The translations under genes and the position numbers were made by a program. The notes beneath the pieces were generated by a model. That model did no database searches. It saw nothing but the letters and a program-made list of their open reading frames with translations, and was not told the origin of the DNA. Positions 4,852 to 62,650 of a DNA stretch of 64,000 bases are shown here, piece after piece. The stretch spans positions 1-64,000 of the forward strand of contig JAAFHT010000003.1 of the NCBI GenBank assembly GCA_013297625.1, given 5' to 3'. Position 1 is the stretch's first letter. Every line of letters starts with the position of its first letter. This stretch comes from Actinomycetota bacterium (GTDB lineage: Bacteria; Actinomycetota; Actinomycetes; Actinomycetales; Microbacteriaceae).

Positions 4852-6636
4852 GTGTCCTACGCAGATCTGCTCTTCATCGGAGGAGTCGTCTACGTGGGGC
4901 CGGGCCGCGGCTCTGTTTCTGGCGGTTTTGCTGCGCCGGCGCGCCTCGAGGTCGCGGTCGTCGACGGCCGCATCGCGGCGGTGGATGCTGACCTCAGTGC
5001 GTGGCGCGGCCCCGACACCGAGGTGGTCGATTTGGCGGGCGGGATGCTGCACGCGGGTTTCGTCGACGCCCACATCCACCCCATCCAGGGCGGACTCGAG
5101 CGGCTCGGCTGCGATCTGAGCGCGGGCTCCTCGGCTGAAGACTCCGCGCGGCTCATCACGGAGTACGCCCAGCTCAATCCTCCGCGCGGCTGCGACGCCT
5201 CGCGCGCCTGGATCACGGGCGGCGGCTGGGCGATGAGTGCCTTCGCGGGCGGCACGCCGAGTGCCGCGCAGCTCGATGCGATCGAGCCAATCCGCCCTGT
5301 CTTTCTCTACAACCGCGACCACCACGGTGCGTGGGCCAACTCGGCCGCGCTCGCGCTCGCGGGCATCACCGCCGACACCCCCGACCCCGCCGACGGCCGC
5401 ATCGAGCGGCTGCCCGACGGCAGTCCGCAGGGCACGCTGCACGAGGGTGCTGCCTCCCTCGTCGCCGCGGTCGCGCCGGCAGCGACGCCCGACGACGAGT
5501 TCGCCGCCCTGCTCGAAGCGCAGCGCTACGCCCACAGCTTCGGCGTCACGGCCTGGCAAGACGCCATCGTGGGCGACTACTTCGGCGCGAGCGACACCGC
5601 GCTCGTCTACCGCCGCGCGCTCGCGGAGGGGCGATTGACCGTCGACGTCGTCGGCGCGTTGTGGTGGGATCGCGCTCGCGGTGTCGAGCAAGTGCCCGAG
5701 CTCGTCGCGCGCCGCGAGGCGCATGCGGCCGAACTCGGGCCCGCCTCCCGCTTCCGGCTCAGTGCCGTCAAGATCATGGCCGACGGGGTCGTCGAGAACG
5801 GCACGGCGGCGATGCTCGAGCCGTACCTGGTTCTCGATGGTGCGGCGCCGAGCGAGCATCCGACGGGCATTGCATTCGTCGGCGGGCAGGCGCTCACCGA
5901 CGCGATCGTCGCCCTCGACGCGGCTGGATTCAGCGCTCACGTGCACGTCATCGGCGACCGCGCTGTGCGTGACGCGCTCAACGCCTTCGAGGCGGCTGCG
6001 GCGATAAACGCGTGGTCAGAGCGCCCGTCGACGGATGTCCGCCGTCACCACCTCGCGCACCTCCAGTTCGTGCATCCCGACGACGTCGCGCGCTTCGCCG
6101 CCCTCGGGGTGACCGCCAACATGCAGGCGCTGTGGGCGTGCAACGAGCCCCAGATGCGCGAGCTCACGGTGCCGCTCGTCGGCCCCGAGCGCGCGGAGAC
6201 GCAGTACCCCTTCGCGAGCATCCTGCGCGTGGGCGCCGGTGCGGGCGCCGGTGCCGGCGACGACGCCACGGCGACGGATGCGCGCCCGCGCCTGTGCGCC
6301 GGCAGCGACTGGCCCGTCTCGACCCCCGACCCCTGGCAGGCCATCCACGTCGCGGTCAACCGCACGCTGCCCGCCGACGACCCCGAGTACGACTCCGAAC
6401 CCCTGCTCGCGCACGAAGCGCTGACCCTCGCCGAGGCGCTCGACGCCTACACCGCGGGCTCGGCGTTCATCAACGGGCGCGGGCCGGGCGACGCGCACGT
6501 CACGGGCGTCATCGAGGTCGGGGCAGTCGCTGACCTCGCGGCGACCGACCGCGACCCGTTCGCGGGGCCGGCGGAGAGCATCCACGCGACGAAGAATGTC
6601 GGCACGTGGGTGGCCGGCCGTCGCGTCTTCGGCTGA
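4852..6636 (+). CDS. Amidohydrolase family protein (YtcJ-like metal-dependent hydrolase)
   Basis: GTG start VSYADLLFIGGVVYVGPG; FVDAHIHPIQGG, GGGWAMSAF, HVHVIGDRAVRDALNAFE, CAGSDWPVSTPDPW. Confidence 0.88.
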   Translation: MSYADLLFIGGVVYVGPGRGSVSGGFAAPARLEVAVVDGRIAAVDADLSAWRGPDTEVVDLAGGMLHAGFVDAHIHPIQGGLERLGCDLSAGSSAEDSARLITEYAQLNPPRGCDASRAWITGGGWAMSAFAGGTPSAAQLDAIEPIRPVFLYNRDHHGAWANSAALALAGITADTPDPADGRIERLPDGSPQGTLHEGAASLVAAVAPAATPDDEFAALLEAQRYAHSFGVTAWQDAIVGDYFGASDTALVYRRALAEGRLTVDVVGALWWDRARGVEQVPELVARREAHAAELGPASRFRLSAVKIMADGVVENGTAAMLEPYLVLDGAAPSEHPTGIAFVGGQALTDAIVALDAAGFSAHVHVIGDRAVRDALNAFEAAAAINAWSERPSTDVRRHHLAHLQFVHPDDVARFAALGVTANMQALWACNEPQMRELTVPLVGPERAETQYPFASILRVGAGAGAGAGDDATATDARPRLCAGSDWPVSTPDPWQAIHVAVNRTLPADDPEYDSEPLLAHEALTLAEALDAYTAGSAFINGRGPGDAHVTGVIEVGAVADLAATDRDPFAGPAESIHATKNVGTWVAGRRVFG

Positions 6637-8104: not shown

Positions 8105-9220
8105 TCATGGGACTCGAAGCTCCGTCAGCGGGTCACGTCGAGCAGCGGCCAGCGCCGGGATCACCGCGGCGATCGCCCCCACGGCGACCGCGAGCAGTGC
8201 GACGGCCGCGAAGAAGTCGAGCCCCGGTAGGGGGTCGCCGGTGGCGGCGAGGCCGATGGCGGCGGCCGCGCATCCGATGATCGCTCCTATCGCGCTGAGC
8301 ACCGCCACTTGCGTCAGCAAGAGCCCGACGATGAGGCCTTGGGATGCGCCAAGGGCGCGGCGGCGTCCGAAATCTTTGCGACGTAGCATCACGAGGCCGT
8401 AGAGGATCGCCGCGACGAGCACGGCAGTGAGCGCGAAGATGATGATGACGAGGTTGCGGCCGAAGCTGCCAAGTTGGCCCTCGATGAGTCCGCGCAGGGT
8501 CGCGAGGCTCTCGCTCGTCGAGATCGTGACGGTCGTGACGTCGTCGATGGCGAGCACAGACTGCACGGCGCGCGAGACGGGCGCGACGAGGTCGGGACGC
8601 TCGGCGATGACGACGAGCACGCTGACTGGGCCTGGGGTCTCCGGAGTCTGCGGGATCATGACGAGCGGCTCGAGAAACTGCAGGTAATCGGGCACATCGA
8701 AACGCCCCATGATCGCGTACTCACCCCCGCTGACCGCGGTGACACCGCCGACCGCGTCGGGCATGCCGAGCGCGTCGAGAGCGGCGGCGGATGCCCAAGC
8801 CGACCGATTCTCGATCGCCGAGGTCGCCGGTATGCCGATCGAGGTGAGGTCGGCCGCCCATACGGTGCGCACGGGCACGCGGGTGGCGTCGTCGAACGCC
8901 GCGTTCTGCACGTCGGTGGCGGCGCCGAACGCTCCGGCCCATTCGATGCCGTCGAGGCTTGCGAGGCGGTCGAGCACGGTGGCGTCGAGGCCCGAGGCGG
9001 GTTCGGCGCGCACGATGATCGAACGGGTGCCGGCCGAGTCGATCGAGCTGATGACAGACTGCTCGGCCCCGACCGTGCGGCCGGTGGTGAGGAGCACGGT
9101 TGCGCACATGCCCGCAACCATGATGATGGTCACGATCGAGGCGACGGGTTGCGCCCATGAGGTGGCGAGCGCCTCGCGCACGACGGCCAGCCACCGCGCC
9201 GTGCGCAGCTGGCCGGTCAC
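8105..9220 (-). CDS. ABC transporter permease (FtsX/MacB-like)
   Basis: 371 aa with N-terminal TM, extracellular domain, then three TM helices; VMLRRKDFGRRRALGASQGLI motif. Confidence 0.88.
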   Translation of the reverse strand: MTGQLRTARWLAVVREALATSWAQPVASIVTIIMVAGMCATVLLTTGRTVGAEQSVISSIDSAGTRSIIVRAEPASGLDATVLDRLASLDGIEWAGAFGAATDVQNAAFDDATRVPVRTVWAADLTSIGIPATSAIENRSAWASAAALDALGMPDAVGGVTAVSGGEYAIMGRFDVPDYLQFLEPLVMIPQTPETPGPVSVLVVIAERPDLVAPVSRAVQSVLAIDDVTTVTISTSESLATLRGLIEGQLGSFGRNLVIIIFALTAVLVAAILYGLVMLRRKDFGRRRALGASQGLIVGLLLTQVAVLSAIGAIIGCAAAAIGLAATGDPLPGLDFFAAVALLAVAVGAIAAVIPALAAARRDPLTELRVP

Positions 9221-9849
9221 AGTTCGATCCTCCGGTCGCAGCGGGCGACGAGCGCGGGGTCGTGGGTGACGACAATGACCGTGGCACCCGAGTGCGCTTG
9301 GGCGTGGAAGGCGTCGACCACGATGTCGGCCGAGGCCGGGTCAAGGTTGCCCGTGGGTTCGTCGGCGAGCAGGATGCGCGGGTCGTTCAGCAGCGCCCGG
9401 CACAGCGCGATGCGTTGCGCTTGACCCCCGGATACTTGCCCGGGTTTCGCGCTCGCGCGCAGCTCCACCCCGAACTGCGCCATCAGCTCGCGGGCGCGGC
9501 CCTGGGCCTCAGCGCGCGGCTCGCCCCGATAGAGGGCGGTCTCGACCACGTTGTCGATGACGGTGCGGGTGGGGTCGAGCGCGGCATCCTGAAACACGAA
9601 CCCGAACAGCGAGGCGCGCAGGTGCGCTCGTCGCGCGTCGCCGAGGCCGGCGACGCTGTCGCCCTCGATGAGCACCTCGCCATCTCCCGGCTTAAGCATG
9701 AGGCCCAGCAGGTAGAGCAGCGTCGACTTGCCGCGACCAGAGGGCCCGGTGACGGCGACAACTTCACCGGCGTCGAAGCGCGCAGACCAATCGGTGAGGA
9801 TGGGCGCGTCGCGGTCGTAGCCGAACGTGATGCCGCGCGCCTCAATCAC
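9217..9849 (-). CDS. ABC transporter ATP-binding protein (LolD/MacB-like)
   Basis: VIEARGITFGYDRDAPILTDW..., Walker A GPSGRGKST, signature VSGGQAQR, LLADEPTGNLD. Confidence 0.93.
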   Translation of the reverse strand: MIEARGITFGYDRDAPILTDWSARFDAGEVVAVTGPSGRGKSTLLYLLGLMLKPGDGEVLIEGDSVAGLGDARRAHLRASLFGFVFQDAALDPTRTVIDNVVETALYRGEPRAEAQGRARELMAQFGVELRASAKPGQVSGGQAQRIALCRALLNDPRILLADEPTGNLDPASADIVVDAFHAQAHSGATVIVVTHDPALVARCDRRIEL

Positions 9850-48115: not shown

Positions 48116-48607
48116 ATGTCGCTTGGACCCCGTGTGGTCTTCGTGCGGTTTCTCGACGACGAGAGCCCCAAACTGAAGCCCTGGATCGCCCACGCGTCGA
48201 GCGTTCTCAGCGCCGACTCGCGATCGATGCCCGCTGCTACCCCGGGCACCTCGGGCGAGGGCAGTGCGGTGTGGCACTTGGTGTCGGCCAATAATCGCGA
48301 GCTTGCGCGAGGGGTGGGCGTTCACGCGACGTTCGAGCAGGCGCGCACGCACGCCGAGCGCGTTGTGGCCGCGGGATCGAACCTGGTCATTGAGCCTGTC
48401 AGCGAGCCTGCGCGTGGCGTCTACGGCTGGTACGCATCGGTTGATGGCGAGCCGGTCATGACGTGCGCGCGCTGGTACGTCACCGACCGTGACCGTCGCC
48501 ACTCCGCTGAACTGGCAGCGCGATCGATCGCGGTTGCCGTCTTGCTCGCCGGCTCTCGATTGACCGACCCCACTCTCATGGGAGGTCGCCGTGGAGCCGC
48601 GGACTGA
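48116..48607 (+). CDS. Uncharacterised protein heading the pst locus
   Basis: MSLGPRVVFVRFLDDESPKLKPWIAHASSVLS...; 3' end overlaps pstC start by 17 nt, suggesting translational coupling. Confidence 0.7.
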   Translation: MSLGPRVVFVRFLDDESPKLKPWIAHASSVLSADSRSMPAATPGTSGEGSAVWHLVSANNRELARGVGVHATFEQARTHAERVVAAGSNLVIEPVSEPARGVYGWYASVDGEPVMTCARWYVTDRDRRHSAELAARSIAVAVLLAGSRLTDPTLMGGRRGAAD

Positions 48608-49607
48608 CCGCATCGTCATTGACGGCGTGAGCGACGGGCCGCGAACGCTTTCTTCGGTCGTCGATCGACCGGATGCTGTGTTCCGGTGGATCGCGCGCAG
48701 CGGCGGCACGATCGTCGTCACCGTCATGACCCTTGTCGGGCTCTTCTTGCTTATCCGCGGGTTTGAGGCGATTCAGTTTGCGGGGCCCGCCTTCGTCATC
48801 GAACAGGCGTGGGACCCGAACTCGGGCAAGTTCGGCATCGCGGCCGTCTTCTTGGGCACTGTCTTCATCGCACTCACGGCCATCTTCTTTGCGCTGCCGC
48901 TCTCGTTCGGCACCGCACTCTACATCAGTGAGTACGCACCGCAGCGGCTCAAGCCGTTCCTGATCACGACGGTTGACCTCATGGCGGCAATTCCCAGCAT
49001 CGTGTACGGGCTGTGGGGCTTCTTCTTCCTGTCGCCGCTCATCCTTCCGCTCTCGCAATGGCTGGCCACCTACATCGGCCCGTGGTTTCCGCCGTTCGCG
49101 GTCGCGGGCTTTGACCCCAACGACCCCCTGGCGACCCCGACGATCTTCTCGGCGTCGACCTTCATTGCCGGCATCGTCGTGGCCCTCATGGTCGCTCCGA
49201 TCACGAGCTCGATCATGCGCGAGGTCTTCCAGCAGGCCCCACTCGGAGAGCGGGAGGGCGCGCTTGCTCTCGGGGCCACCAAGTGGGGCATGATCACGAG
49301 CGTCGTGATCCCCTACGGCCGAGGCGGAATCATCGGCGGAACGATGCTCGGCCTGGGCCGCTCGCTCGGCGAGACCATCGCGGTCTTCCTCATCATTTCG
49401 CCGGTGTTTGTCATCCAGCCACAGATTCTCGAAAAGGGCGGCAACTCCATTTCGGCGCTCATCGCACTGCGCTACAACGAAGCCTCTGCCTTCGAGATTT
49501 CCGCGCTCATGGCGGCCGGTCTCGCCTTGTTCATCGTCACGCTCATCATCAACTTCGGTGCCTCGACCATCGTGGCGCGCAGTCGATCCGGAAGCGTGGG
49601 CGACTAA
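48591..49607 (+). CDS. pstC: Phosphate ABC transporter permease PstC
   Basis: AIPSIVYGLWGFFFLSPL; REVFQQAPLGEREGALALGATKWGMI; RSLGETIAVFLI. Confidence 0.94.
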   Translation: MEPRTDRIVIDGVSDGPRTLSSVVDRPDAVFRWIARSGGTIVVTVMTLVGLFLLIRGFEAIQFAGPAFVIEQAWDPNSGKFGIAAVFLGTVFIALTAIFFALPLSFGTALYISEYAPQRLKPFLITTVDLMAAIPSIVYGLWGFFFLSPLILPLSQWLATYIGPWFPPFAVAGFDPNDPLATPTIFSASTFIAGIVVALMVAPITSSIMREVFQQAPLGEREGALALGATKWGMITSVVIPYGRGGIIGGTMLGLGRSLGETIAVFLIISPVFVIQPQILEKGGNSISALIALRYNEASAFEISALMAAGLALFIVTLIINFGASTIVARSRSGSVGD

Positions 49608-49632
49608 TGGCCGCGACGAGGGAGCACTGCTC

Positions 49633-50976
49633 GTGACCGACGTAATCGAACGCCCGAATGCTCACGGTAGTGATGACGAGCGCGACGCCGTTGACGGAGA
49701 ACCAGCAGCTCGTTCTCCTCGCACCTGGACGCGCACAGACACGCCAACGCCCGCCTCGGCACCCGAGCTGCGCCGTTCGACAGCAACTATTCGCTCGATC
49801 GACGTCATTCGACTGATCGGATCAGCACTCGCAGCGGTCGCATTGACCTCGTGGTTGTTCTTCTATGCGCTGCCGCTCGAAGGCGAACTGGGCTTTGTTC
49901 TCGTCTCGTACGGCTTTTTCTTGCTGTTCTTCGGCATCTTGACGGCGTTCGATGAGAACCGCCCGACGGTGCGCGATCGCCTGGCGAGCGTCGTGATGCA
50001 TTCGCTGGCCTTCTTGCTCCTGCTGGCGCTCTTCTCGGTCGTGGTCTACACGACCCTGCGAGGGCTCGAACCTCTCGGGATTCCGACGTTCTTTCCGAAC
50101 TTCTACCTAGAAGACATGAGTAACGCGGGCCCCCTTGATGGCCTTGATCGCGGCGGCGTGGCGCATGCCATCGTGGGCACGCTGATCATGATCACAATCG
50201 CGCTCATTCTCACGGTTCCGCTGGGCATTCTCACGGCCGTGTTTCTCACCGAGTACCCGGGTCGGTTCTCGCGATTCGTTCGAACGGTGGTCGAAGCCAT
50301 GACCGCCTTGCCGTCAATCGTCGCTGGCCTCTTTGTGTACGCGATCATCGTGCAGTTCGGCCTTACTCGCTCGGGCTTTGCCGCCGCGTGTGCGATCACC
50401 GTGATGATGCTGCCGATCGTCGTGCGGTCGGCCGATGTCGTCTTGCGCCTCGTGCCGTCGAGCCTGAAGGAGGCGGCGCGCGCTCTGGGAGCATCCACGT
50501 GGCGCACCGTCTGGACGGTCACGATTCCGACGGCTCGCTCGGGGCTCACCACTGCCGTGATCTTGGGAACAGCTCGGGGAATTGGCGAGACCTCGCCCGT
50601 TCTTCTCACCGCCGGCGCCACAACGTTCTTCAACTTCAACCCCTTCAGCGGCCCCATGACGTCGTTGCCGCTAACCACCTTCACGTTCATCAAGTCGCCT
50701 GAGCTCAACTTCATCGCTCGTGGATTCGGCACCGCCGTTGTGCTCATGGCTCTCGTTGTGATCTTGTTCGTGATCGCCCGTGCCATCGGCGGACGCGGCC
50801 CGGGCCAGCTCAGCGCGCGACAACAGCGTGCCCGCACGCAGGCGTCGCGCATCGACGACTACCGATTCCGTGCTCGCGAGCTGGGAATCACTCCGCCTCA
50901 GGCGGTGAGCCCGTTCGAACGACTCAAGCGGCTCATACCAATGCCCGCACGACGAAGGGTCACCCCTCATGACTAA
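49633..50976 (+). CDS. pstA: Phosphate ABC transporter permease PstA with N-terminal extension
   Basis: MTALPSIVAGLFVYAII; KEAARALGASTWRTVWTVTIPTARSGLTTAVILGTARGIGETSPVL; about 130 aa N-terminal extension with extra TM helices. Confidence 0.92.
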   Translation: MTDVIERPNAHGSDDERDAVDGEPAARSPRTWTRTDTPTPASAPELRRSTATIRSIDVIRLIGSALAAVALTSWLFFYALPLEGELGFVLVSYGFFLLFFGILTAFDENRPTVRDRLASVVMHSLAFLLLLALFSVVVYTTLRGLEPLGIPTFFPNFYLEDMSNAGPLDGLDRGGVAHAIVGTLIMITIALILTVPLGILTAVFLTEYPGRFSRFVRTVVEAMTALPSIVAGLFVYAIIVQFGLTRSGFAAACAITVMMLPIVVRSADVVLRLVPSSLKEAARALGASTWRTVWTVTIPTARSGLTTAVILGTARGIGETSPVLLTAGATTFFNFNPFSGPMTSLPLTTFTFIKSPELNFIARGFGTAVVLMALVVILFVIARAIGGRGPGQLSARQQRARTQASRIDDYRFRARELGITPPQAVSPFERLKRLIPMPARRRVTPHD

Positions 50977-52708
50977 CCCTGGGATGCGTGGCGTTCGCGC
51001 CGCGATCGCCCTCGCCCTCGTAGCCAGTGTGGGCCTCGGGCCCGCCGTCGCTCAGGCTTCGCCCGCGCGCGCGGTGGGAATCGTCTACCAGCCCATTGAG
51101 GGTGCCGGGTCAACGTGGTCGGCAAATGCACTGCAGCAGTGGGTGCGCAACGTCTTCGACAACTACCGCTGGAAGATCTCGTACAACGACCAGGGCTCGT
51201 CGGCGGGCCGACAGTTGTTTGCTCAAGGGACGACCGACTTCGGCGTCTCAGAGATTCCCTACGCTCTCGCGAACAGCGACAGCCCTGACCCGCGGCCCGC
51301 TCGTCAGTTCGCGTACATCCCCATCGTCGCCGGTGGAACCGCGTTCATGTACAACCTCGTCATCGGAGGGCAGCGGGTTACCAACCTTCGCCTCTCGGGC
51401 GAGACCGTCGCGAAGATCTTCACCGGAGTCATCACCAAGTGGAACGATCCGGCGATCGCCGCCGACAACCCCAAACTTGCGCTTCCGGCGACGACGATCG
51501 TTCCTGTCGTTCGTTCTGATGGGTCGGGTACGACGGCCCAATTGACGGCATGGATGCGCGCTCAGCATCCGGCGATCTGGAACGCCTATTGCGCCAAAGC
51601 GGGTCGGTCGAACTGTGGAATCACCTCGAACTACCCCGTCATTCCCGGCTCGGCTTTCTTGGCCCAGCAGGGGTCGAATCAGGTTGCCAGCACGGTAGCG
51701 AAGAACAGTTCGGTCGGGGCCATTACCTACGTTGAGGCCTCGTACGCGATCAACGCCCGCTTCCCCGTGGCGAAGCTGCTCAACGCGGCCGGCTTCTACA
51801 CCGAGCCGACGGCCTCGAATGTTGCGGTGTCGCTGCTGTCGGCCGTGATCAACAACGACCCGAACTCGCAGGAGTACCTCACCGCCAACCTGAGCCCGGT
51901 CTACAACAGCAAAGACCCTCGGGTGTATCCGTTGTCGTCGTACTCGTACATCATCGTGCCGACGGCGATCGAAGGAAACTTCACGCTCGATAAGGGGCTC
52001 ACGCTCGCCGATTTTGTGTCGTACTTCTTGTGCGAAGGGCAGCAGCAGGCCGAAGTTCTTGGCTACTCGCCCTTGCCGATCAACCTGGTTCAAGGAGGCC
52101 TTGAACAGGCTCAGTTGATCCCCGGCGGGGATCCGCAGAACAAGAACGTCTCGACGTGCAATAACCCGACGTTCTCACCAGACGGCACGAACAAGCTCGC
52201 CAATGAGGCACCGCAGCCTCAGGCCTGTGACAAGAAAGGCCCCGACCAGTGCTTGACCGGTACGGGTGGCGCCTCGGGAACTCCCACCGTCGGTAGTGGC
52301 ACCACAAACCTGGGAACAGGCGGCACCGGTGGAGGCGAGTCGGGCGAAGACGGTGACAACAGCGACGGTCTTGGGTCGGTCGGTGATGGCGAGACCGTGG
52401 GACTCGGCGGCGGCAGCAAGATCGTGACCGGAACGCCGCTCACGCTCGATTCGCGGGGGATCGAACCCCACGTGCTGGTGCTCATGATTCTGGCCACTCT
52501 CGTGGCTTTGTCGGCAGTTTTGTTGCCGCCGATCATCGCTCGTCGCCGGGCTGCGCTCGCTCTCGCCGCACCGGTCGGTTCCATTCCGCGCGCCGCCACT
52601 CAGCCTCGTGGCTCCCCGTACACGCGACGACCATCGATGCCAAAAATTCACCTACCCGCCCGCTTTACAAAATTCGGCCGTGCGACTGCGCCGGGTGAGG
52701 ACTCTTAG
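50969..52708 (+). CDS. pstS: PstS-type phosphate-binding protein with C-terminal TM anchor
   Basis: EGAGSTWSANALQQW, TDFGVSEIPYAL, VRSDGSGTTAQLTAWM; Gly-rich linker then HVLVLMILATLVALSAVLLPPIIARR; no lipobox Cys. Confidence 0.9.
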   Translation: MTNPGMRGVRAAIALALVASVGLGPAVAQASPARAVGIVYQPIEGAGSTWSANALQQWVRNVFDNYRWKISYNDQGSSAGRQLFAQGTTDFGVSEIPYALANSDSPDPRPARQFAYIPIVAGGTAFMYNLVIGGQRVTNLRLSGETVAKIFTGVITKWNDPAIAADNPKLALPATTIVPVVRSDGSGTTAQLTAWMRAQHPAIWNAYCAKAGRSNCGITSNYPVIPGSAFLAQQGSNQVASTVAKNSSVGAITYVEASYAINARFPVAKLLNAAGFYTEPTASNVAVSLLSAVINNDPNSQEYLTANLSPVYNSKDPRVYPLSSYSYIIVPTAIEGNFTLDKGLTLADFVSYFLCEGQQQAEVLGYSPLPINLVQGGLEQAQLIPGGDPQNKNVSTCNNPTFSPDGTNKLANEAPQPQACDKKGPDQCLTGTGGASGTPTVGSGTTNLGTGGTGGGESGEDGDNSDGLGSVGDGETVGLGGGSKIVTGTPLTLDSRGIEPHVLVLMILATLVALSAVLLPPIIARRRAALALAAPVGSIPRAATQPRGSPYTRRPSMPKIHLPARFTKFGRATAPGEDS

Positions 52709-52709
52709 C

Positions 52710-55394
52710 GTGTCGACCGTGTCAACCACCTCACAGCCCTCTCAGCGTGCGCGCCGACGCGTTGCGTTAGGCCGCGTTGCGTTCGCGACGATTGCGGCCG
52801 TGAGCTTTGGGGGCCTTGTGGCGGGAGCCCCCGCGGCACCGGCCGCGGCGGCAGCGCCGACGCCGATCACGATCGCGTGGGATGGCGACACCTCTTCTGC
52901 TGCGAGCTTTCAGCCGACGCGCGACCCCGCGAGCCCGCACTACTCCGAGATGCGCAACATCACTGTGACGGTGAGCCAAACGACGAACATTGGCGATCAA
53001 GCGATTCGCGTGAATGTGGCCGGGTTCGCTGGCACCCGGTCAGCGATCTCTGAGGGTGTCCAGAACGGCGCCAACTTCGTTCAGGCCATGCAGTGTTGGG
53101 GTGACGACCCCAATGCGGCAGACTTCGTCGAGAGCTGCCAATGGGGCGGCCGATTGCCCACCGTGCTCGGCAACGCCGTCTACTTCGACAACGCCTTCCG
53201 CGTGTCGACGAAGGACTACACCCCGACCCCGGCGACCGCCTACGACAACCCGTTCGTCACCGTCAGCGGCGCGGTCGTGACGGCTAAAGCAAACCTCGAC
53301 AGCGCGGGGCGCACGTTTAACCCGATTCTGAGCTACTTCAGCCCCTCGACGACCAACGAGGTACCGCTCGCGCGAATCGGCGCGGATGGCACGGGCTATT
53401 TCGACTTCGAGACTCAGTCGTCGAGCCAGTCGCCGCACTTGGGGTGTGGCGATGCGGGGCAATTGCGCTGCTGGCTCGTCATCGTGCCTCGCGGAACGAA
53501 GTTCGGCGGCGGCGAGAATGGTTCCGACCCGACCGACTGCAGTGACCTGACCAACCGCTTTGGCGTTTCGTACACCTACGGCCAAGCCGCCACGATTCAA
53601 GGCGGAAGCCCGGTCAACCCGAAGTGTGACTACTTCGAGAACCGCATTGTCGTGCCGCTTGACTTCACGCCCACAGCGGTGTCGTGCCCGTCAGGGGCCC
53701 CCGAGTTTCGTGTGTCTGGTTCGCAATTCATGATCTCGGCCATGAGTTCGTGGCAGCCCTCGCTCTGCCAAGAGGTCGGTAGCACCTTCAGCTTTGCGAC
53801 CAACCCTGATGGAGTGGCACGGGCCCAATTGCTCGAAGAGCGCTCGGGCTCGCCTGAGCTCATCTACAGCGGGTATCCGGTGACGAGCGCAGAACTGCCG
53901 ACCGTCGACGAGCGAACGCTCTTCACCAAAACGGCGTTTGAGTACGTTCCCATCGCGGTCTCGAGCATGGTCATTGCGTACAACGCAGAGTTTGCCAACG
54001 GCCGTCAAGAGAGTTTGGTCATCACTCCGCGCCTCATGGCCAAGCTCTTGACGCAGTCGTACTCGTTCACCGTGCCGCAGTCGACCGCGACGCCGACGCA
54101 GGCGATTGCGCACCTGTCGGCGGCCGCGCGCGGCTACAACTACTGGTCGACCGACCCCGACTTTCGCGCGGCAAACCCCAGCAACTGGCAAAACTTCGAA
54201 CAGCAGACCCCGAGCATCGTCCTCCCGGGGCCGGCTGCCGCTGACGGAATCAAGCAGGTCTGGCGATGGATTCTGGCAGACCAGGATGCCGTGGCCTTCC
54301 TTAACGGAACCCCCGACCCCTGGGGAATGACGGTCAATCCCTACTACCTGCCGCGGACCGCGACGAACCTCATCCCCTGGTACTACGACGCGAGCCTGAA
54401 CTACCTGCCCACGCCGACAACGCGTCAGGTGGGTCAAGTGAACATCGACGGCAGCCCACTGCAGATCAGCACCACCGTTCTCGACACCTTCCCCAAAGAT
54501 GACGGCAGCTTGCTGCCGTTCGAGCTCTCGCAGACGAACGGTACGAGCCGTTACGACACGATTCAGTTCGCCCCGTACGCCATTGACTACCTCGCGGCGG
54601 CGCGTCAGGCGTTCCGTGGCGACCCCAACTCGCGGGTGTTGTGGGATGCCAACCGCATCAATGACGCCGGTAACTTCGGCGCCTGGATCAGCACGGGTGT
54701 GCAAGACGCCGGGGCGCGGTTCATGATCGCTGTCACCGACTCCGCCAATGCGGCGCGGTATGGCTTGACGACCGCCCAGCTCACGCCCTCCAACACGACG
54801 ACTCCGGTTTCGAGCACGGCCGAGACGATGACGGCGGCACTTGCGGCCCTCTCGCCCACGTCGCTCGATGCCGTCTTGCAGGTCGACCCCGCGAAGGTGA
54901 CGGGAAACGCGTACCCCCTCACGATGGTGACCTACGCCGGAGTCAACCTGACGAAGTCGACCCCAGCATCCCGAACCACCATGACCGGCATGCTGCAGCA
55001 AATCACGACGACGGGCCAAGTGCAGGGAACCGCGCTTGGCCAACTGCCGGTCGGATACGTTCCCTTGACGGCCGAGTTGACGACGAAAGCGGCGGCGGCA
55101 ACCAGCCGCATTCAGTCGTGGACCCCGCCCAAGGCGCCCTCACCCACGCCGAGTTCGAACTCGAACTCCAACTCTTCATCGAACTTCCCGACTCTTGACG
55201 ACGAAGGCGGCTCGGGCGTCGAGCCCGGCGTTGACCCCGAGCTCACTCCCGGTGTCGATGAATTGTCAGAAGACCGCACGCCCGAATCGACGTCGGGGGT
55301 GCTCAACGGCGGTCTCGCGGTTTCGCTCGTGGTCGGCCTACTCGGCTTCGTCTTTGCCCCGGGCATCTTGCGCGGCGGAGGTCTGTTCTTCTAA
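52710..55394 (+). CDS. Large secreted, C-terminally anchored substrate-binding-like protein
   Basis: 894 aa from GTG; signal sequence, SNSNSNSSSN linker, C-terminal TM (LAVSLVVGLLGFVFAPGIL); periplasmic-binding-like segments (FVPIAVSSMVIAYN-type YVPIAVSSMVIAYNAEF, MAKLLTQSY). Confidence 0.75.
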   Translation: MSTVSTTSQPSQRARRRVALGRVAFATIAAVSFGGLVAGAPAAPAAAAAPTPITIAWDGDTSSAASFQPTRDPASPHYSEMRNITVTVSQTTNIGDQAIRVNVAGFAGTRSAISEGVQNGANFVQAMQCWGDDPNAADFVESCQWGGRLPTVLGNAVYFDNAFRVSTKDYTPTPATAYDNPFVTVSGAVVTAKANLDSAGRTFNPILSYFSPSTTNEVPLARIGADGTGYFDFETQSSSQSPHLGCGDAGQLRCWLVIVPRGTKFGGGENGSDPTDCSDLTNRFGVSYTYGQAATIQGGSPVNPKCDYFENRIVVPLDFTPTAVSCPSGAPEFRVSGSQFMISAMSSWQPSLCQEVGSTFSFATNPDGVARAQLLEERSGSPELIYSGYPVTSAELPTVDERTLFTKTAFEYVPIAVSSMVIAYNAEFANGRQESLVITPRLMAKLLTQSYSFTVPQSTATPTQAIAHLSAAARGYNYWSTDPDFRAANPSNWQNFEQQTPSIVLPGPAAADGIKQVWRWILADQDAVAFLNGTPDPWGMTVNPYYLPRTATNLIPWYYDASLNYLPTPTTRQVGQVNIDGSPLQISTTVLDTFPKDDGSLLPFELSQTNGTSRYDTIQFAPYAIDYLAAARQAFRGDPNSRVLWDANRINDAGNFGAWISTGVQDAGARFMIAVTDSANAARYGLTTAQLTPSNTTTPVSSTAETMTAALAALSPTSLDAVLQVDPAKVTGNAYPLTMVTYAGVNLTKSTPASRTTMTGMLQQITTTGQVQGTALGQLPVGYVPLTAELTTKAAAATSRIQSWTPPKAPSPTPSSNSNSNSSSNFPTLDDEGGSGVEPGVDPELTPGVDELSEDRTPESTSGVLNGGLAVSLVVGLLGFVFAPGILRGGGLFF

Positions 55395-55527: not shown

Positions 55528-56616
55528 ATGCACAAGCACACGAAGCTGCGCTTCGGCGTAGTTGCAGCGCTCGCTGTCGCGGCGCTCACTTTCGGTACGG
55601 CGGCGCCGGCATTTGCCGACCCCGACCCGTTGGGCCCGCCGAAGCAGCTCAACGGTACTGGCTCCGACACGACGCAAGACGTCATGAGCGGCGTCGCGAG
55701 CGTTGTCACTAACATCGGAAACTGGGATGCCGTGCCCGCGGGCAGCAGCATCACCGTTGACGGCACGACGTTCAGCCGGCCGATTGGCTCGACCGCGGGC
55801 ATCCGCGCACTCAGCTCGTCGATTCGCGGCATCGCCTACGCTGGCACGACGCTTCCGGTCGGCACCCTCGACTTTGCTCGTGCTTCGGCGCTGCGCAGCG
55901 AAGCCGGCACCGAGTTGACCTACATCCCGTTCGCGCGTGACGCGGTCACCATTGCCATGAACATCTCGAGCGACTTCCCGAAGGATGTCGCGCTCGGTGC
56001 TGCAGGCCAGGCCACCAACCTGTTCACGCTGCGCAACATCTACCTCGGCACCGTCACCTCGTTCATCGACAGCGCCGGCAACACGGTCACCATCCGTCCG
56101 TTGCTGCCGCAGGCGAACTCGGGAACCCGCACCTACTGGGTGAGCGTTCTCGGCACCACCGAGGCCGCGCTGACCGCGGGTGGCCGCGCCACCGACCTGG
56201 GCAACACGGTGCAAGAGCACGACGGTACCTTCTTGACGCGCGATGGCGACATCGTTCCGTTCTCGGTCGGTCAGTGGTTGGCGCAGAGCAACAACCGCTC
56301 GCTGCCCACGGCCGTTGTTGAGCGTCGCGGCCAGGCCGTTCTCGGCAGCATCGACACTGTCAAGCCGATCATCTACGACGGTACGACGATCACGACGAAC
56401 CCGGACTTCCTTCCGAGCCGTCTGGTCTACAACGTCGTCGAGACCCGTGCGCTCACCACGAGCACCCCGTCGGCCAACGACCTCGCCATTCGTGCGGCGT
56501 TCGCCGGTTCGACGTCGGCCGTGTGTGCAGCGCAGACGCAGATCAAGCAGTACGGCTTCGCCACCATCGGCTCGCAGTGCGGCAGCACCACGACGCAGCG
56601 CGGCTACGTCAACTAA
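55528..56616 (+). CDS. Secreted PstS-like substrate-binding protein without anchor
   Basis: Signal peptide ...TFGTAAPAFADPDP; LNGTGSDTTQDVMSGV; QANSGTRTYWVSVLGT; 362 aa. Confidence 0.75.
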   Translation: MHKHTKLRFGVVAALAVAALTFGTAAPAFADPDPLGPPKQLNGTGSDTTQDVMSGVASVVTNIGNWDAVPAGSSITVDGTTFSRPIGSTAGIRALSSSIRGIAYAGTTLPVGTLDFARASALRSEAGTELTYIPFARDAVTIAMNISSDFPKDVALGAAGQATNLFTLRNIYLGTVTSFIDSAGNTVTIRPLLPQANSGTRTYWVSVLGTTEAALTAGGRATDLGNTVQEHDGTFLTRDGDIVPFSVGQWLAQSNNRSLPTAVVERRGQAVLGSIDTVKPIIYDGTTITTNPDFLPSRLVYNVVETRALTTSTPSANDLAIRAAFAGSTSAVCAAQTQIKQYGFATIGSQCGSTTTQRGYVN

Positions 56617-56661: not shown

Positions 56662-57972
56662 ATGAAACTCATGAAAAAGGCCGCTTCTGTGGCCCTCGCC
56701 AGTGCGCTGGTCGTGGTTGGCCTGAGCGCTGCTCAGCCGGCCTTGGCCGACCAGATCCCGGGTACCCTCACCCTGGTCAGCGGCAACGGCTCCAGCGGAG
56801 CTTCTCTGAATGGTTCGAACACGGACACCTACTTCCTGAACTCCGTCGCGACCAGCGTCGGCGCTCCGGTCGGGTTCCGTGCCGCCAGCACCAGCCAGAT
56901 TTTCCAGGGCGGCGTGCTGGTTGGAAACATCTCCAACCTGCGCACGACTTCGATGGCAGTGACGGCGGGAACGAACGGTCTTGACGGCAACCCTGCCCTC
57001 ATGGACCGCTCGGTCATCGCTACGAACAACTTCGTGAGCAACAAGAAGCTGGACAACGCGGCACTCTCGACCCTCGTCTCGGGCCCGTTCGAGTACCGCT
57101 ACTACTTCCACGCCTCGAGCACCTCGCTTGACCTGGTCAACGACAAGTACCTGTCGATCACGTTGAACTACAACGCGACCGCTGGAACCTGGAGCCTTCC
57201 GGTCTCGGCTACGGCGACGGCCACCTCGCTCACCGCGAGCGCCTCGGGCACGAACGTCACCCTCGCGGCGACGGTCACCCCCTCGGGCACCGCGGGCAAC
57301 GTGGTGTTCCGCGAGGGTGCGACCACTGTCGCGACCGTCGTGAACGCTGCGGGTACCGTCAGCACGACCCTCACGGGCGTGTCGAACGGTCCGCACACCT
57401 ACACGGCCCAGTTCGTGCCGACCAACGCCACGCTGTTCACGGGCTCAACCTCGGGCACCGCATCGGTCACGGTCGGCAGCCAGCCGGCCCCCGCGACCGT
57501 CACGGGTGACATCACCGTGCAGGTTGCCAACGGTGTTGGCGGCGGCGCTCTCGTGCTGACGGCTTCGTCGCTCACGGCGAACCTCGGCTCGGTCGTCAAC
57601 TCGGGTGGAACGCTTAACGCCTCGGGCACCGTCACCGCTGTGGTCGACGACTCGCGTCAGGCTGGCGCTGCGGCGTTCTCGCTGACCGGCCAGGTGAGCG
57701 ACTTCACCGCTCCGGGTGGGCTCGTGCTCAGCTCGAGCTACCTCGGCTGGACCCCCACCGTGACCGGTGTGGGAACGGGCGGTGCTGTCGTTACGTCGTC
57801 GTCGTCGGCGACTGGCGGCCTCAAGGTTGCGCGCGTGTGGGCGACGGGCACCCCGTCGGCCGCTGACCCGCAGCCGACCACCACCAACGCGTCGGCCCTG
57901 CTGCAGCTGCGGGCCCCGCTCAACACCGCGCCCGGCAACTACTCGGCGCTGCTGACGGTGACCCTCACCTAA
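56662..57972 (+). CDS. Secreted Ig-like repeat protein with WxL-like C-terminal domain
   Basis: Signal peptide; Ig-like VTLAATVTPSGTAGNVVFREGATTVATVVNAAGTVSTTLTGVSNGPHTYTAQFVPTN; C-terminus VTAVVDDSRQAGAAAFSLTGQVSDFT...YLGWTPTV...LQLRAPLNTAPGNYSALLTVTLT. Confidence 0.7.
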   Translation: MKLMKKAASVALASALVVVGLSAAQPALADQIPGTLTLVSGNGSSGASLNGSNTDTYFLNSVATSVGAPVGFRAASTSQIFQGGVLVGNISNLRTTSMAVTAGTNGLDGNPALMDRSVIATNNFVSNKKLDNAALSTLVSGPFEYRYYFHASSTSLDLVNDKYLSITLNYNATAGTWSLPVSATATATSLTASASGTNVTLAATVTPSGTAGNVVFREGATTVATVVNAAGTVSTTLTGVSNGPHTYTAQFVPTNATLFTGSTSGTASVTVGSQPAPATVTGDITVQVANGVGGGALVLTASSLTANLGSVVNSGGTLNASGTVTAVVDDSRQAGAAAFSLTGQVSDFTAPGGLVLSSSYLGWTPTVTGVGTGGAVVTSSSSATGGLKVARVWATGTPSAADPQPTTTNASALLQLRAPLNTAPGNYSALLTVTLT

Positions 57973-58118
57973 GCACCTGCACCACCGTGGCGGGCTGGGC
58001 GGATTCGTGACCGCTCAGCCCGCTGCGGGCATTCGTGCGACTTGGACTACCCGGCTCGCGCACCCCGTGTTTCTCTTCCGTCAACCTGTTGCACGCTTTC
58101 TGATGATTGGTTCATGCA

Positions 58119-59309
58119 ATGCGTTTCCCCGCCGCTTATGCCTCTGCCACTGTCGTTCTGAGCCTTGCGCTCGCGCTCGTGGGAATCGGCGCCGCCGCCG
58201 CTCCTACTGGCCCCCTGCAGCAAGCCGAGGGAGACGTCACCTGGAGTGTTCAACCCGCCAACACCGTCAACGGCACGCGCACGCAGTTCGAGTACTCGAC
58301 TGACCCGGGTACGCAAGTCGTTGACTATGTGGTCGTCTCTAATCGCGGCACGACCGCCGCCGAGTTCGCGATCTATGCCACCGATGCGACCAACGATGTT
58401 GAGACCGGAGCCTTCGGCCTTCTGCCGAGCAACGAGCCCCCCGTCGACATGGGTTCGTGGATCACCATGGATGTTGAGTCGGTCACTCTCGAGCCCGGCC
58501 AGGCGAGCACCATCCCCTTCAATCTTCTGATTCCGTCTGACGCCACCCCGGGCGACCACGTGGCGGGAATCATCGCCTCGATCACAACCACGGCCGATGA
58601 CGACGGCACGACCGTCAGTCTCGAACAGCGGGTCGGCGCTCGGGTCTACCTTCGCGTCTCAGGCGACGTCGCAGCGTCAGCCGAAGTCTCGGGTGTCACG
58701 ACGACCTTTACCCCCGAACTCAACCCCTTCGCCTTTGGTCGGCTCACGCTCGACTACTCCGTGCGCAACACCGGCAACGTGCGCATGGATGTCGTGCAAG
58801 ACGTGCAGATCACCGGCCCGTTTGGCATTCCCCTGGCGACCATCACGCCTCAGCCGCTCGTCGACCTCTTGCCGAGACAGACCGTCGGCGTCTCAGCAGA
58901 CGTTCCGCAAATCGCGGCCTTGTTCCTGGCCTTCTCCACCATCACGGTCACCCCCGGCCCGTTGGGGTCGGCCGAGGCCCCCGCCGTCGAAGACAGTGAG
59001 ACGGCGGTCGAGACCGCGACTCCTGAACCGACGGATGCCCCCGCAGAGCTCGACCCCACCGCAGCTCCTCCCATTGACGCCTCGAACCTCGACGATCGTG
59101 TCGACTTCATCCCGGTGACGGCGGGAGCAACCACGCTCACTGTTTCGTGGACGCTCCTCCTGCTCGTCGTGATCATCGGAGGCGTCGCGTTCCTCGCCGT
59201 TCGCTACGTGGCGAACACGCGCGAGCAGATGTACGCCGCGATCGATGAAGCGGCGGCAGCAGCGCGCGAAGAGGCGTTGGCGTCGGCAAACAAGGCGAAC
59301 GAAAAGTGA
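58119..59309 (+). CDS. DUF916 (WxL-interacting) family protein with C-terminal TM
   Basis: VTWSVQPANTVNGTRTQFEYSTDPGTQVVDYVVVSNRGTTAAEFAIYATDA...LEPGQASTIPFNLLIPSDATPGDHVAGIIAS; TM LLLLVVIIGGVAFLAVRYV. Confidence 0.8.
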   Translation: MRFPAAYASATVVLSLALALVGIGAAAAPTGPLQQAEGDVTWSVQPANTVNGTRTQFEYSTDPGTQVVDYVVVSNRGTTAAEFAIYATDATNDVETGAFGLLPSNEPPVDMGSWITMDVESVTLEPGQASTIPFNLLIPSDATPGDHVAGIIASITTTADDDGTTVSLEQRVGARVYLRVSGDVAASAEVSGVTTTFTPELNPFAFGRLTLDYSVRNTGNVRMDVVQDVQITGPFGIPLATITPQPLVDLLPRQTVGVSADVPQIAALFLAFSTITVTPGPLGSAEAPAVEDSETAVETATPEPTDAPAELDPTAAPPIDASNLDDRVDFIPVTAGATTLTVSWTLLLLVVIIGGVAFLAVRYVANTREQMYAAIDEAAAAAREEALASANKANEK

Positions 59310-60022
59310 CGGTCACCTCGGTAACGACGACGCTGTCGTTGGCCACGGTCGCGCTCGCGCTCGCGCTCGTCACTACGGCGAGTGTCGCGGCCACGGCTGC
59401 GACACCCCCTCCCTCGGAGGGCCCGATTACGGTGGTCGTGCCGGCGACATCGTCACCGAGCCCGTCGCCGAGCAGCACGGGAACACGTGGAGGCGGGTCG
59501 ACGGGCGCGTCGGGCGAGACCCCCGACGACGTCGTCGCCGGAGCGCCGACGTGCGCGGCGTCGAACGCTGATGGTTCGCCCACCCCCGCGGCAACGCCGA
59601 AAGACGATGCTCGTGTACTGGCGGTCGACCGCGAACGGCTGATTGCCGGCGAGTGGATCATCACGCGGTCGTCTGACTTCACGCGCGGCGAGAAGGTTCA
59701 GATTGTGATGTATCCCGGAGCAGTGGTGATCGGGAGTTTCACGGTCGATGCTCCAACGGGTTTCGCGGCGCGATTCCGCATTCCTAATGAAACCTTGGTG
59801 GGGCAGTACTCTCTCGAGGCGACAGGCTGGGCCTCGTGCGCGGTTGCCAACAACGTCGTCACGATCGTCAGTGGCCCCGCGCCCACCCCGGCATCAGTCG
59901 TGTGGTGGCCGTACGCCGTGCTCGGCTCACTCAGCTTGGGCTTTGTGTCGCTCGTCTTCGCCTTCCGCGCCCAGATCGCTCTGTGGTTCGCGGCTTCTGC
60001 GGCATCGGTCTCGGTTCGATGA
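59306..60022 (+). CDS. Secreted protein with Pro/Ser/Gly linker and C-terminal TM
   Basis: Signal peptide, SSPSPSPSSTGTRGGGSTG linker, Ig-like domain, TM YAVLGSLSLGFVSLVFAFRAQI. Confidence 0.7.
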   Translation: MTVTSVTTTLSLATVALALALVTTASVAATAATPPPSEGPITVVVPATSSPSPSPSSTGTRGGGSTGASGETPDDVVAGAPTCAASNADGSPTPAATPKDDARVLAVDRERLIAGEWIITRSSDFTRGEKVQIVMYPGAVVIGSFTVDAPTGFAARFRIPNETLVGQYSLEATGWASCAVANNVVTIVSGPAPTPASVVWWPYAVLGSLSLGFVSLVFAFRAQIALWFAASAASVSVR

Positions 60023-60996
60023 CCGCAGTTTCTGACGAGGAGCGCACGGTCGCCCCGCCCAGCCCAGCGGCTCGACCTCCGCTGCCTTTTTGGCTGCGCA
60101 AGCGCCCGAAGCGGGTTCGGCCCCGCAAACCTGCACCGACCCCTCGAGATGTGCGGTGGTGGGTTGGTGTTGTCTGGCTCGTGTTGTCGGCAATTCTGTT
60201 GGGATTCGTCGCCCACGTCTCGCTCGTGGGTTCGCTGCATCACGCACGCTCGCAGTTCACGCTGTACCAAGAATTGCGATCGAGTTTGGCCCTGGCAACG
60301 GCCCCGCTCGGCCAACTTGACGTCGACGGTGTCTTGGTGCCTGAAGGCACGCCGATCGGTGTGCTCGTGATCGAGACCGACACCGTGTCTCTCAGCGAGG
60401 TCTTCGTGCAGGGAACGACGGCCGAGGTGCTCACTCTCGGACCTGGTCACCGGCGCGACACTGTCATGCCCGGCCAGGTCGGCACGAGCGTGATCATGGG
60501 GCGTCAAGCGACCTTCGGTGGGCCGTTCGGCTCGCTGAGCTTGCTCCGGACCGGTGACGAGATCACGGTCATTACCGGGCAAGGAGCGTCAACCTTCGAG
60601 GTCATCGGGCTGCGCCGCGAGGGCGAACTCTTGCCGATTCCGCTCGATGAGGGAGAGGGCCGACTCGAGCTCATTACGGCTGACGGAACCCCGTTCGTTC
60701 CCTCCGGTGCTCTGCACATCGATGCCGACCTCGTCGGTGAAGCGTTCGAGGCGCCGTCGCCGGTCTTCACCAAAGAAGTTCTCGAGCCCTCGGAGTTTGC
60801 CATGGTCACCGACGTGTCGGGCCTGATTCCGACACTGTTCTGGGCCCAGTTGCTCTTCGCCGCCATCGTCGTGATTCGGTGGGTGCGATCGCGCTGGGGC
60901 ATTTGGCAAACCTGGATCATTGCGACCCCCGTGGTCTTGGCCCTCGGCGCAGCTACCGCGAGCAGCGCCATGACCCTCTTCCCCAACCTGCTCTAG
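60019..60996 (+). CDS. Sortase-fold membrane protein lacking catalytic His and Cys
   Basis: N-terminal [46 protein letters not shown] and [10 protein letters not shown] align with class E-type sortase GPGHxxxTxxPGxxGNxxxxAHRxTYGxPF...GD and LxLTTC. Confidence 0.75.
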
Positions 60997-61009: not shown

Positions 61010-61981
61010 ATGACCGACAGCCCCCAGACCGTGACTGATGACGCCGTGACTGAATCGACCGAGCCGATCGACGAGCAACCTCAGAGCGACATTCCCGAAG
61101 AGACGAAACCGCTCGACGTCGATTCGGCGACCGCGACGCGTGAGCTCACCATGCCGAACCCGGTTGTGGGCGACGACCTTGAGCGCATTCTCGCGCCCGC
61201 GGCGGAGCTGGCCGAACTTGAGGCCCGCCAGATTTCGGCGTGGTTTGGAGAGCGCAAGGTGCTCGACCGCGTCGATCTCACGATGGAGGCGGGCAAGATC
61301 ACGGCACTCATTGGGCCTTCGGGTTGTGGCAAATCGACGTTCTTGCGCATCCTGAACCGCATGCACGAAATGGTGCCGTCGGCATCGCTTGCCGGTGAGG
61401 TGTTGCTCGACGGTGAAGACATCTACGGCGCCACTCGTCGGCTCACGCAGGCTCGCCGCGATATCGGCATGGTGTTCCAGAAGCCCAATCCTTTTCCGGC
61501 CATGTCGATCTACGACAACGTCATTGCCGGCCTCAAGCTCACGGGCATCAAGGCCAGCAGAGACGTCAAAGACGCCCTCGTTGAGTCGAGCTTGATCAAG
61601 GCGGGGCTCTGGAAAGAGGTGCGCGACCGACTGCGGCAGCCCGGTGGCGGCTTGTCGGGTGGCCAACAGCAGCGTCTCTGCATCGCTCGCTCGCTCGCTG
61701 TTCGGCCACGCGTGCTGCTCATGGACGAGCCGTGTTCGGCCCTCGACCCCACATCGACTCGCGTCATTGAAGAGACGATGCTCGAGCTGGCGAAAGAGGT
61801 CACGATCGTCATCGTGACCCACAACATGCAGCAAGCTCAGCGGGTTTCCGACAACTGCGCATTCTTCTTGGCTGCGCAAGGCACCCCCGGATTGATCGTC
61901 GAACAGGGCGACACGGGAGTCATGTTCGATAGCCCCACCGACTCACGCACCTTCGACTACGTCAACGGTCGATTCGGGTAG
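61010..61981 (+). CDS. pstB: Phosphate ABC transporter ATPase PstB with acidic N-terminal extension
   Basis: [73 protein letters not shown]. Confidence 0.95.
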
Positions 61982-61984
61982 GTC

Positions 61985-62650
61985 GTGAACGCGACCGACG
62001 ATCCGTTCCGCGCGGTTCACCGCGCGCATCGTCGGGTTGTCTGGGCGCGCACTTTCGGTGCGGCCGCGATCGTTGCCATCGGTGTGAGCCTGGTTTCGCT
62101 GGCGGATGCTGCGCCGGTGTCGAGCGATACTGTGGCCGCGGCATCCACCCCCGGGGTCTTGGTCGCGCCAGGGCCGCATGCATCGTCAGCGCCCGCGCCA
62201 GCTGCGGTCGATGAGGTGCCCGCTTTCGCGCCGTTGCCCGAGGCTCCGGCGGCCGCGATAGCGGAACCCGCTGCACCGCTCGAGCCTGCCGCGGCTCTTC
62301 TCGACGGCGGCCCATGGCAGATCACGATTGACACCGTCGGGTACCAAGCCGAGATCGACGCGTGCTTGTGGGTGCGCATGAACCTTGGCGGCCCGGCGCC
62401 GATCGTCGGAGCCCACAACTACTGTGGCGGCGGAATCGTGCTCGACATGATGATCGGTGAGACCGTCACGCTCGCGGGCACCGAACTGGATGGTACGTAC
62501 GTCGTGACGGAGGCCCGCGACGCGCGAGTCGGAGAATCCGCCCGCGGGGCAACCGCAGGCATGGCGGCCGACGTGATTCTGCAGACCTGTTATTGGGATA
62601 GTGACGGCCGACTACGGCTCGTGGGGCTCACCCCGGCCGCGGCGAACTAG
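61985..62650 (+). CDS. Secreted sortase-like protein
   Basis: N-terminal TM, Ala/Pro linker, then WQITIDTVGYQAEIDACLWV...PIVGAHNYCGGGIVLDMMIGETVTL...DVILQTCYWDSDGRLRLVGLTP; His, TxC-like Cys and Arg in sortase order. Confidence 0.6.
   Translation: MNATDDPFRAVHRAHRRVVWARTFGAAAIVAIGVSLVSLADAAPVSSDTVAAASTPGVLVAPGPHASSAPAPAAVDEVPAFAPLPEAPAAAIAEPAAPLEPAAALLDGGPWQITIDTVGYQAEIDACLWVRMNLGGPAPIVGAHNYCGGGIVLDMMIGETVTLAGTELDGTYVVTEARDARVGESARGATAGMAADVILQTCYWDSDGRLRLVGLTPAAAN

Follow-up and report, generated by a model that had tools for sequence, protein, structure and literature searches.

A protein homologous to the class E sortases but devoid of their catalytic residues is encoded within a phosphate transporter (pst) operon at 60019..60996 (+) of the window, the whole stretch of 64,000 nucleotides that was analysed. 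Sortases are the enzymes that attach proteins to the bacterial cell wall; the protein described here, designated F, is on the evidence of its sequence a pseudoenzyme in which complete loss of the triad has become fixed across a family, and no activity would be expected of it in vitro. With a probability of roughly 0.6, we read F as a triad-less class-E-like sortase that was recruited to the Pst operon as a non-catalytic part, where it likely offers a docking groove for A, a PstS-like protein encoded in the same operon. A search of the literature, most subscription papers excepted, found no natural pseudosortase and no sortase-like protein in a pst operon.

Sortase homology and membrane architecture

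The F gene runs from an ATG at 60019 to a stop ending at 60996 as an intact frame of 325 codons, and 13 bases separate its end from pstB. The product carries three predicted transmembrane (TM) helices and a sortase domain at about residues 105-240, and its assignment to the sortases is well above chance. The Pfam family PF04203 (Sortase) matches F at 36.5 bits (cut-off 26.6) and is matched in 10 of 10 orthologues; comparison with PDB sequences retrieves class E sortases at 5.6e-8; and HHalign, comparing profiles built from 71 F homologues and from ordinary class E sortases, returns 99.4% and 1e-21. The score with the NCBIfam class E model NF033747 (57.6 bits) lies under the curated cut-off of 160. 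Structure prediction, which the preliminary description had proposed as a check of the sortase fold, bears that fold out: the best 50 PDB matches of the AlphaFold2 model in Foldseek are sortases only (probability 1.00), the model being of moderate confidence overall (pLDDT 72, pTM 0.48) and at about 80-93 over most of the sortase domain.

Fold and clear sequence homology are common to F and the class E sortase SrtE1 of Streptomyces coelicolor (PMC5148588; PDB 5go5/5go6; NF033747), and F has in common with class E sortases the conserved segment GxGH...T..PGQ.G and the N-terminal membrane anchor. Unlike SrtE1, F lacks the catalytic His, Cys and Arg, has a shorter beta6/beta7 loop and an Arg in place of Tyr229, and carries two additional C-terminal TM helices. 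The latter pair (60820..60993, +) ends in a conserved PNL(L) motif that serves as a family signature. A single N-terminal helix and the C-terminal pair are predicted to anchor F in the membrane, and the sortase barrel would lie outside it.

Loss of the triad and history of the family

The triad of SrtE1 comprises His251, Cys320 and Arg329, and Tyr229 of the beta3/beta4 loop contacts the substrate (PMC5148588). The corresponding residues of F are Arg162 (codon cgt, 60502..60504, +), Ala221 (gct, 60679..60681, +), Ala231 (60709..60711, +) and Arg145, respectively. The preliminary description had called F a pseudo-sortase with His and Cys replaced; R162 and A221 confirm this, and both segments quoted there are present, LELITADG being the one that holds A221 and the other the one that holds R162. 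The third triad residue, Arg, which that account did not mention, is lost as well (A231). Its statement that no Cys is available to compensate extends to the entire protein of 325 aa, which is free of Cys, and a compensating Cys is thus ruled out.

Conservation was assessed in 71 distinct, non-redundant F homologues and 22 ordinary sortases. At position 162, that of the catalytic His, Arg is found in 70 of the 71 homologues and Lys in one, compared with His in 22/22 ordinary sortases. Position 221, that of the catalytic Cys, is occupied by Ala (63), Ser (4), Gly (3) or Thr (1), and position 231, that of the catalytic Arg, by Val (37), Ala (17), Ile (12), Leu (3) or Thr (2). The orthologue comparison suggested for R and A accordingly returned Arg/Lys at 162 in 71/71 and Ala/Ser/Gly/Thr at 221 in 71/71; a Cys within the sortase domain occurs in 0/71. 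The position of SrtE1 Tyr229 holds Arg in 58/71 homologues, with Tyr not among the six commonest residues, as against Tyr in 21/22 ordinary sortases. Constants specific to the F family, again across the 71 homologues, are R146, Q153, G187-Q188-G189, R199, D235-A236 and the C-terminal P-N-L.

Gapless automatic alignments set the Cys column on D222 of F. The beta7 strand reads L-T-(L/M)-T-(S/T/A)-C in sortases and L-T-L-V-T-A in the F family; the diverged, pst-linked sequence L166 reads LTTSNPEYLASERLVV, the active sequence L167 reads LTTCHPRFSARQRLIVV, and L165 reads LVTSDG. This strand pattern, together with TTSNP in L166 and VTSDG in L165, places the Cys column on 221, and the nucleophilic Cys is missing from F in either register (221 or D222).

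A search of the phylum recovered, from other actinobacterial classes, class-E-like sortases with three TM helices that share the C-terminal helices of F and in which His, Cys and Arg are all intact. The examples L167, L168, L169, L171, L172 and L173 retain GHRTT, the Cys motif and the Arg, possess the two C-terminal TM helices seen in F, show no pst operon around them in any of the six examined, and fall across the branch that separates the pst-linked F clade. The pst-linked F sequences themselves form one clade (99/92), whose earliest branch, with active sortases as the outside group, is L166. There, the F gene (8938-9837) encodes GRRTTYG (His to Arg) and TTSNP (Cys to Ser) with the catalytic Arg kept, and judging from these motifs L166 looks like a transitional form. 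The simplest history would be that a three-TM sortase was recruited once to a pst operon, and that His and Cys were lost early and the Arg and substrate-related features later. Both kinds occur side by side in genome G727 (the active-site-intact L173 and the pst-linked pseudo form L165) and in G796 (the intact L171 and the pseudo form L156).

The extended pst operon and its inheritance

The preliminary description had placed an intact F gene within an operon, which stands given the 325-codon frame, the purifying selection described below and its retention in the operon; the surroundings, which it left unnamed, are those of a phosphate transporter. The genes of the window run in one direction in the order pstC, pstA, pstS, A, B, C, D, E, F, pstB and H, and several of them overlap or nearly touch. 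The permease gene pstC (48591..49607, +) scores 256 bits with TIGR02138, over the cut-off; the second permease gene, pstA (49408..50976, +, the longest open frame, with the true start probably past 49607), is assigned from a second TIGR02138-related match at 49990-50790 and from the homologous gene in pst operons. The phosphate-binding protein PstS (50969..52708, +) has a C-terminal TM helix, as does the PstS-like A of about 890 aa (52608..55394, +), for which TIGR00975 is matched in 8/9 members and the C-terminal part of which resembles Mycobacterium tuberculosis PstS1 (2.7e-6). A also has a long, unannotated N-terminal region, as well as conserved Cys residues. Downstream lie the genes for B (55528..56616, +), a secreted protein resembling periplasmic binding proteins (PF12849, 1.3e-8) that ends in Ig-like repeats where operons are compact; for C (56662..57972, +), a secreted protein assigned by sequence from a WxL-like YLGWTP motif and without a match in a Pfam search; for D (58107..59309, +), which resembles WxL-interacting proteins (DUF916), has a C-terminal TM helix and just passes the PF06030 cut-off (27.5 versus 27.3 bits); and for E (59306..60022, +), a secreted or membrane protein whose stop is overlapped by the start of F by 4 bases. 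The ATPase gene pstB (61010..61981, +) scores 336 bits with TIGR00972, just under the cut-off of 343.

All four standard components of the Pst transporter (PstSCAB) are thus encoded, and beyond these the F operon adds A, B and F and often C, D and E. Streptomyces-type PHO boxes consist of GTTCACC repeats. Three matches of this type were counted, under the chance mean of 5.5, and provide no evidence for such a box. Another PstC/PstA-like permease pair is found on a different contig of the same genome (G000; C125:21017-22961), so the F operon is probably not the only phosphate system of this genome.

At every homologue with readable flanks, F adjoins pst genes. Flanks were read at 18 loci and at 20 diverse loci, most of them in other families of the class, and in further classes; in the 18 and 20 loci, a few of which end at contig ends, F is accompanied by pst genes and by A and/or B, with pstB not detected beside F in L111 and L114. 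Where the gene order is rearranged, F still adjoins A in most operons, whereas pstB and B shift. Searches of one set of 300 Microbacteriaceae genomes detected F in 60 and A in 64, and the 64 include all 60 F genomes, so that within this set F is always accompanied by A; the four genomes with A only are draft assemblies in which the contig of A stops before the expected place of F. A was not clearly identifiable in the transitional L166. As a matter of gene content, the co-inheritance of F and A indicates a shared pathway and not physical contact.

The genes for the WxL-like and DUF916-like proteins (56662-59309, +) sit inside an actinobacterial phosphate operon, and the WxL-like gene is present in two tandem copies in L033. 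The preliminary description had looked to WxL/DUF916-like proteins for binding partners. The likeness to that system consists of the WxL-like motif of C and the marginal PF06030 match of D; in contrast to it, F persists in operons in which no D homologue was detected (L037, L040, L045, L047, L115, L121 and L124), and WxL/DUF916 proteins are accordingly rejected as obligate or defining partners, A being present in 60/60 of the Microbacteriaceae genomes with F. At a separate locus, L146, an ordinary one-TM sortase that retains its His is separated by about 2 kb from a DUF916-like gene encoded on the opposite strand (5004-5594 and 2054-2908).

Possible roles of F

F is probably a structural or receptor part of the phosphate transporter. 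In the favoured reading, F would have joined the extended Pst operon, lost its triad and been retained as a non-catalytic component, its remodelled former active-site groove most likely holding a partner protein, foremost the PstS-like A. The groove would be lined by the invariant or near-invariant R162, R146, R199 and D235 together with the TGQG turn, and docking to F could keep extracellular phosphate-binding proteins near the PstC/PstA permease. Signals of the LPXTG type are unlikely ligands, since no C-terminal sorting signal was recognisable among the operon proteins, the substrate-contacting Tyr is replaced and the beta6/beta7 loop is shorter.

A possible, if rather unlikely, role is that of an anion or phosphate receptor, in which the conserved R146, R162 and R199, at or close to the former active site, would bind phosphate, or else a phosphorylated cell-wall polymer, and either signal its presence to the transporter or hand it over. 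The specificity of the Arg set to the F family, the phosphate operon around it and the positive charge kept at the His position (Arg in 70, Lys in one of 71) are in keeping with this proposal, although the equally conserved D235 could neutralise one Arg. The fuller version, wherein a sortase barrel was converted from peptide ligase to receptor of phosphate or a phosphopolymer and its Arg cluster hands the anion or a signal to a PstS-like protein and PstCA, we regard as unlikely.

More doubtful still is a role of F as regulator or partner of an active sortase, be it the product of H or the housekeeping class E sortase that the same genome also holds. H (61985..62650, +) starts four bases past pstB and encodes a likely divergent sortase of 221 aa with conserved AHN...LQTC motifs. 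Its relatives conserve AHN-x-CGG and LQ(T/S)C, and an Arg-like residue is present too; searches of Pfam and NCBIfam did not recognise H, HHalign against SrtE returned 2.8%, and the AlphaFold model is of low confidence (47.7), with best 50 matches that are weak and all sortases, so the identification rests on the motifs and on these consistent weak Foldseek matches. Such a pairing would fit the sortase-like His and Cys motifs of H and the distance of a few kb between H and F in several Microbacteriaceae, but H occurs in 14 of 300 genomes, compared with 60 of 300 for F, and is too rare to be the general partner of F. Moreover, after pstB several loci have another gene, lytic transglycosylase-like by eye, and the operon is without a recognisable sorting signal.

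Very improbable is a retained activity based on other chemistry, with Thr/Ser220 or a Ser at 221 as the nucleophile. A Thr or Ser stands at 220 in 69/71 homologues, and a Ser at the Cys position in the early-branching L165, L166 and L127; nevertheless, 162 offers no His, small or hydrophobic residues replace the catalytic Arg, and 221 is Ala in 63/71. The hydroxyl at 220 is likely structural, as active sortases likewise have Ser, Thr or Ala just before the Cys.

The F gene is, by the measure of its substitution rates, under purifying selection: dN/dS is about 0.06-0.08 in two pairs (dN 0.0085 and dS 0.111 for the window F and L031; dN 0.039 and dS 0.64 for the F genes of L038 and L039), and synonymous change per site exceeds non-synonymous change more than 10-fold. 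Decay of a sortase gene, or an artefact of assembly, as the disappearance of every catalytic residue might suggest, has a negligible probability as an account of F and was dropped, given 71 distinct homologues that are intact and share these substitutions, a dN/dS below 0.1 and the conserved operon position. The preliminary description had preferred a scaffold or receptor role to decay; decay is excluded, and a scaffold or receptor would be the best remaining explanation.

The F operon points to a larger, hitherto undescribed form of the Pst transporter with extra parts at the cell surface. Where F proteins carry the Pfam label "sortase", several actinobacterial classes seem to hold a non-working cell-wall ligase. 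Lastly, the traceable series from active sortase through Cys-to-Ser replacement to loss of the triad would allow the conversion of an enzyme into a binding module to be tested directly.
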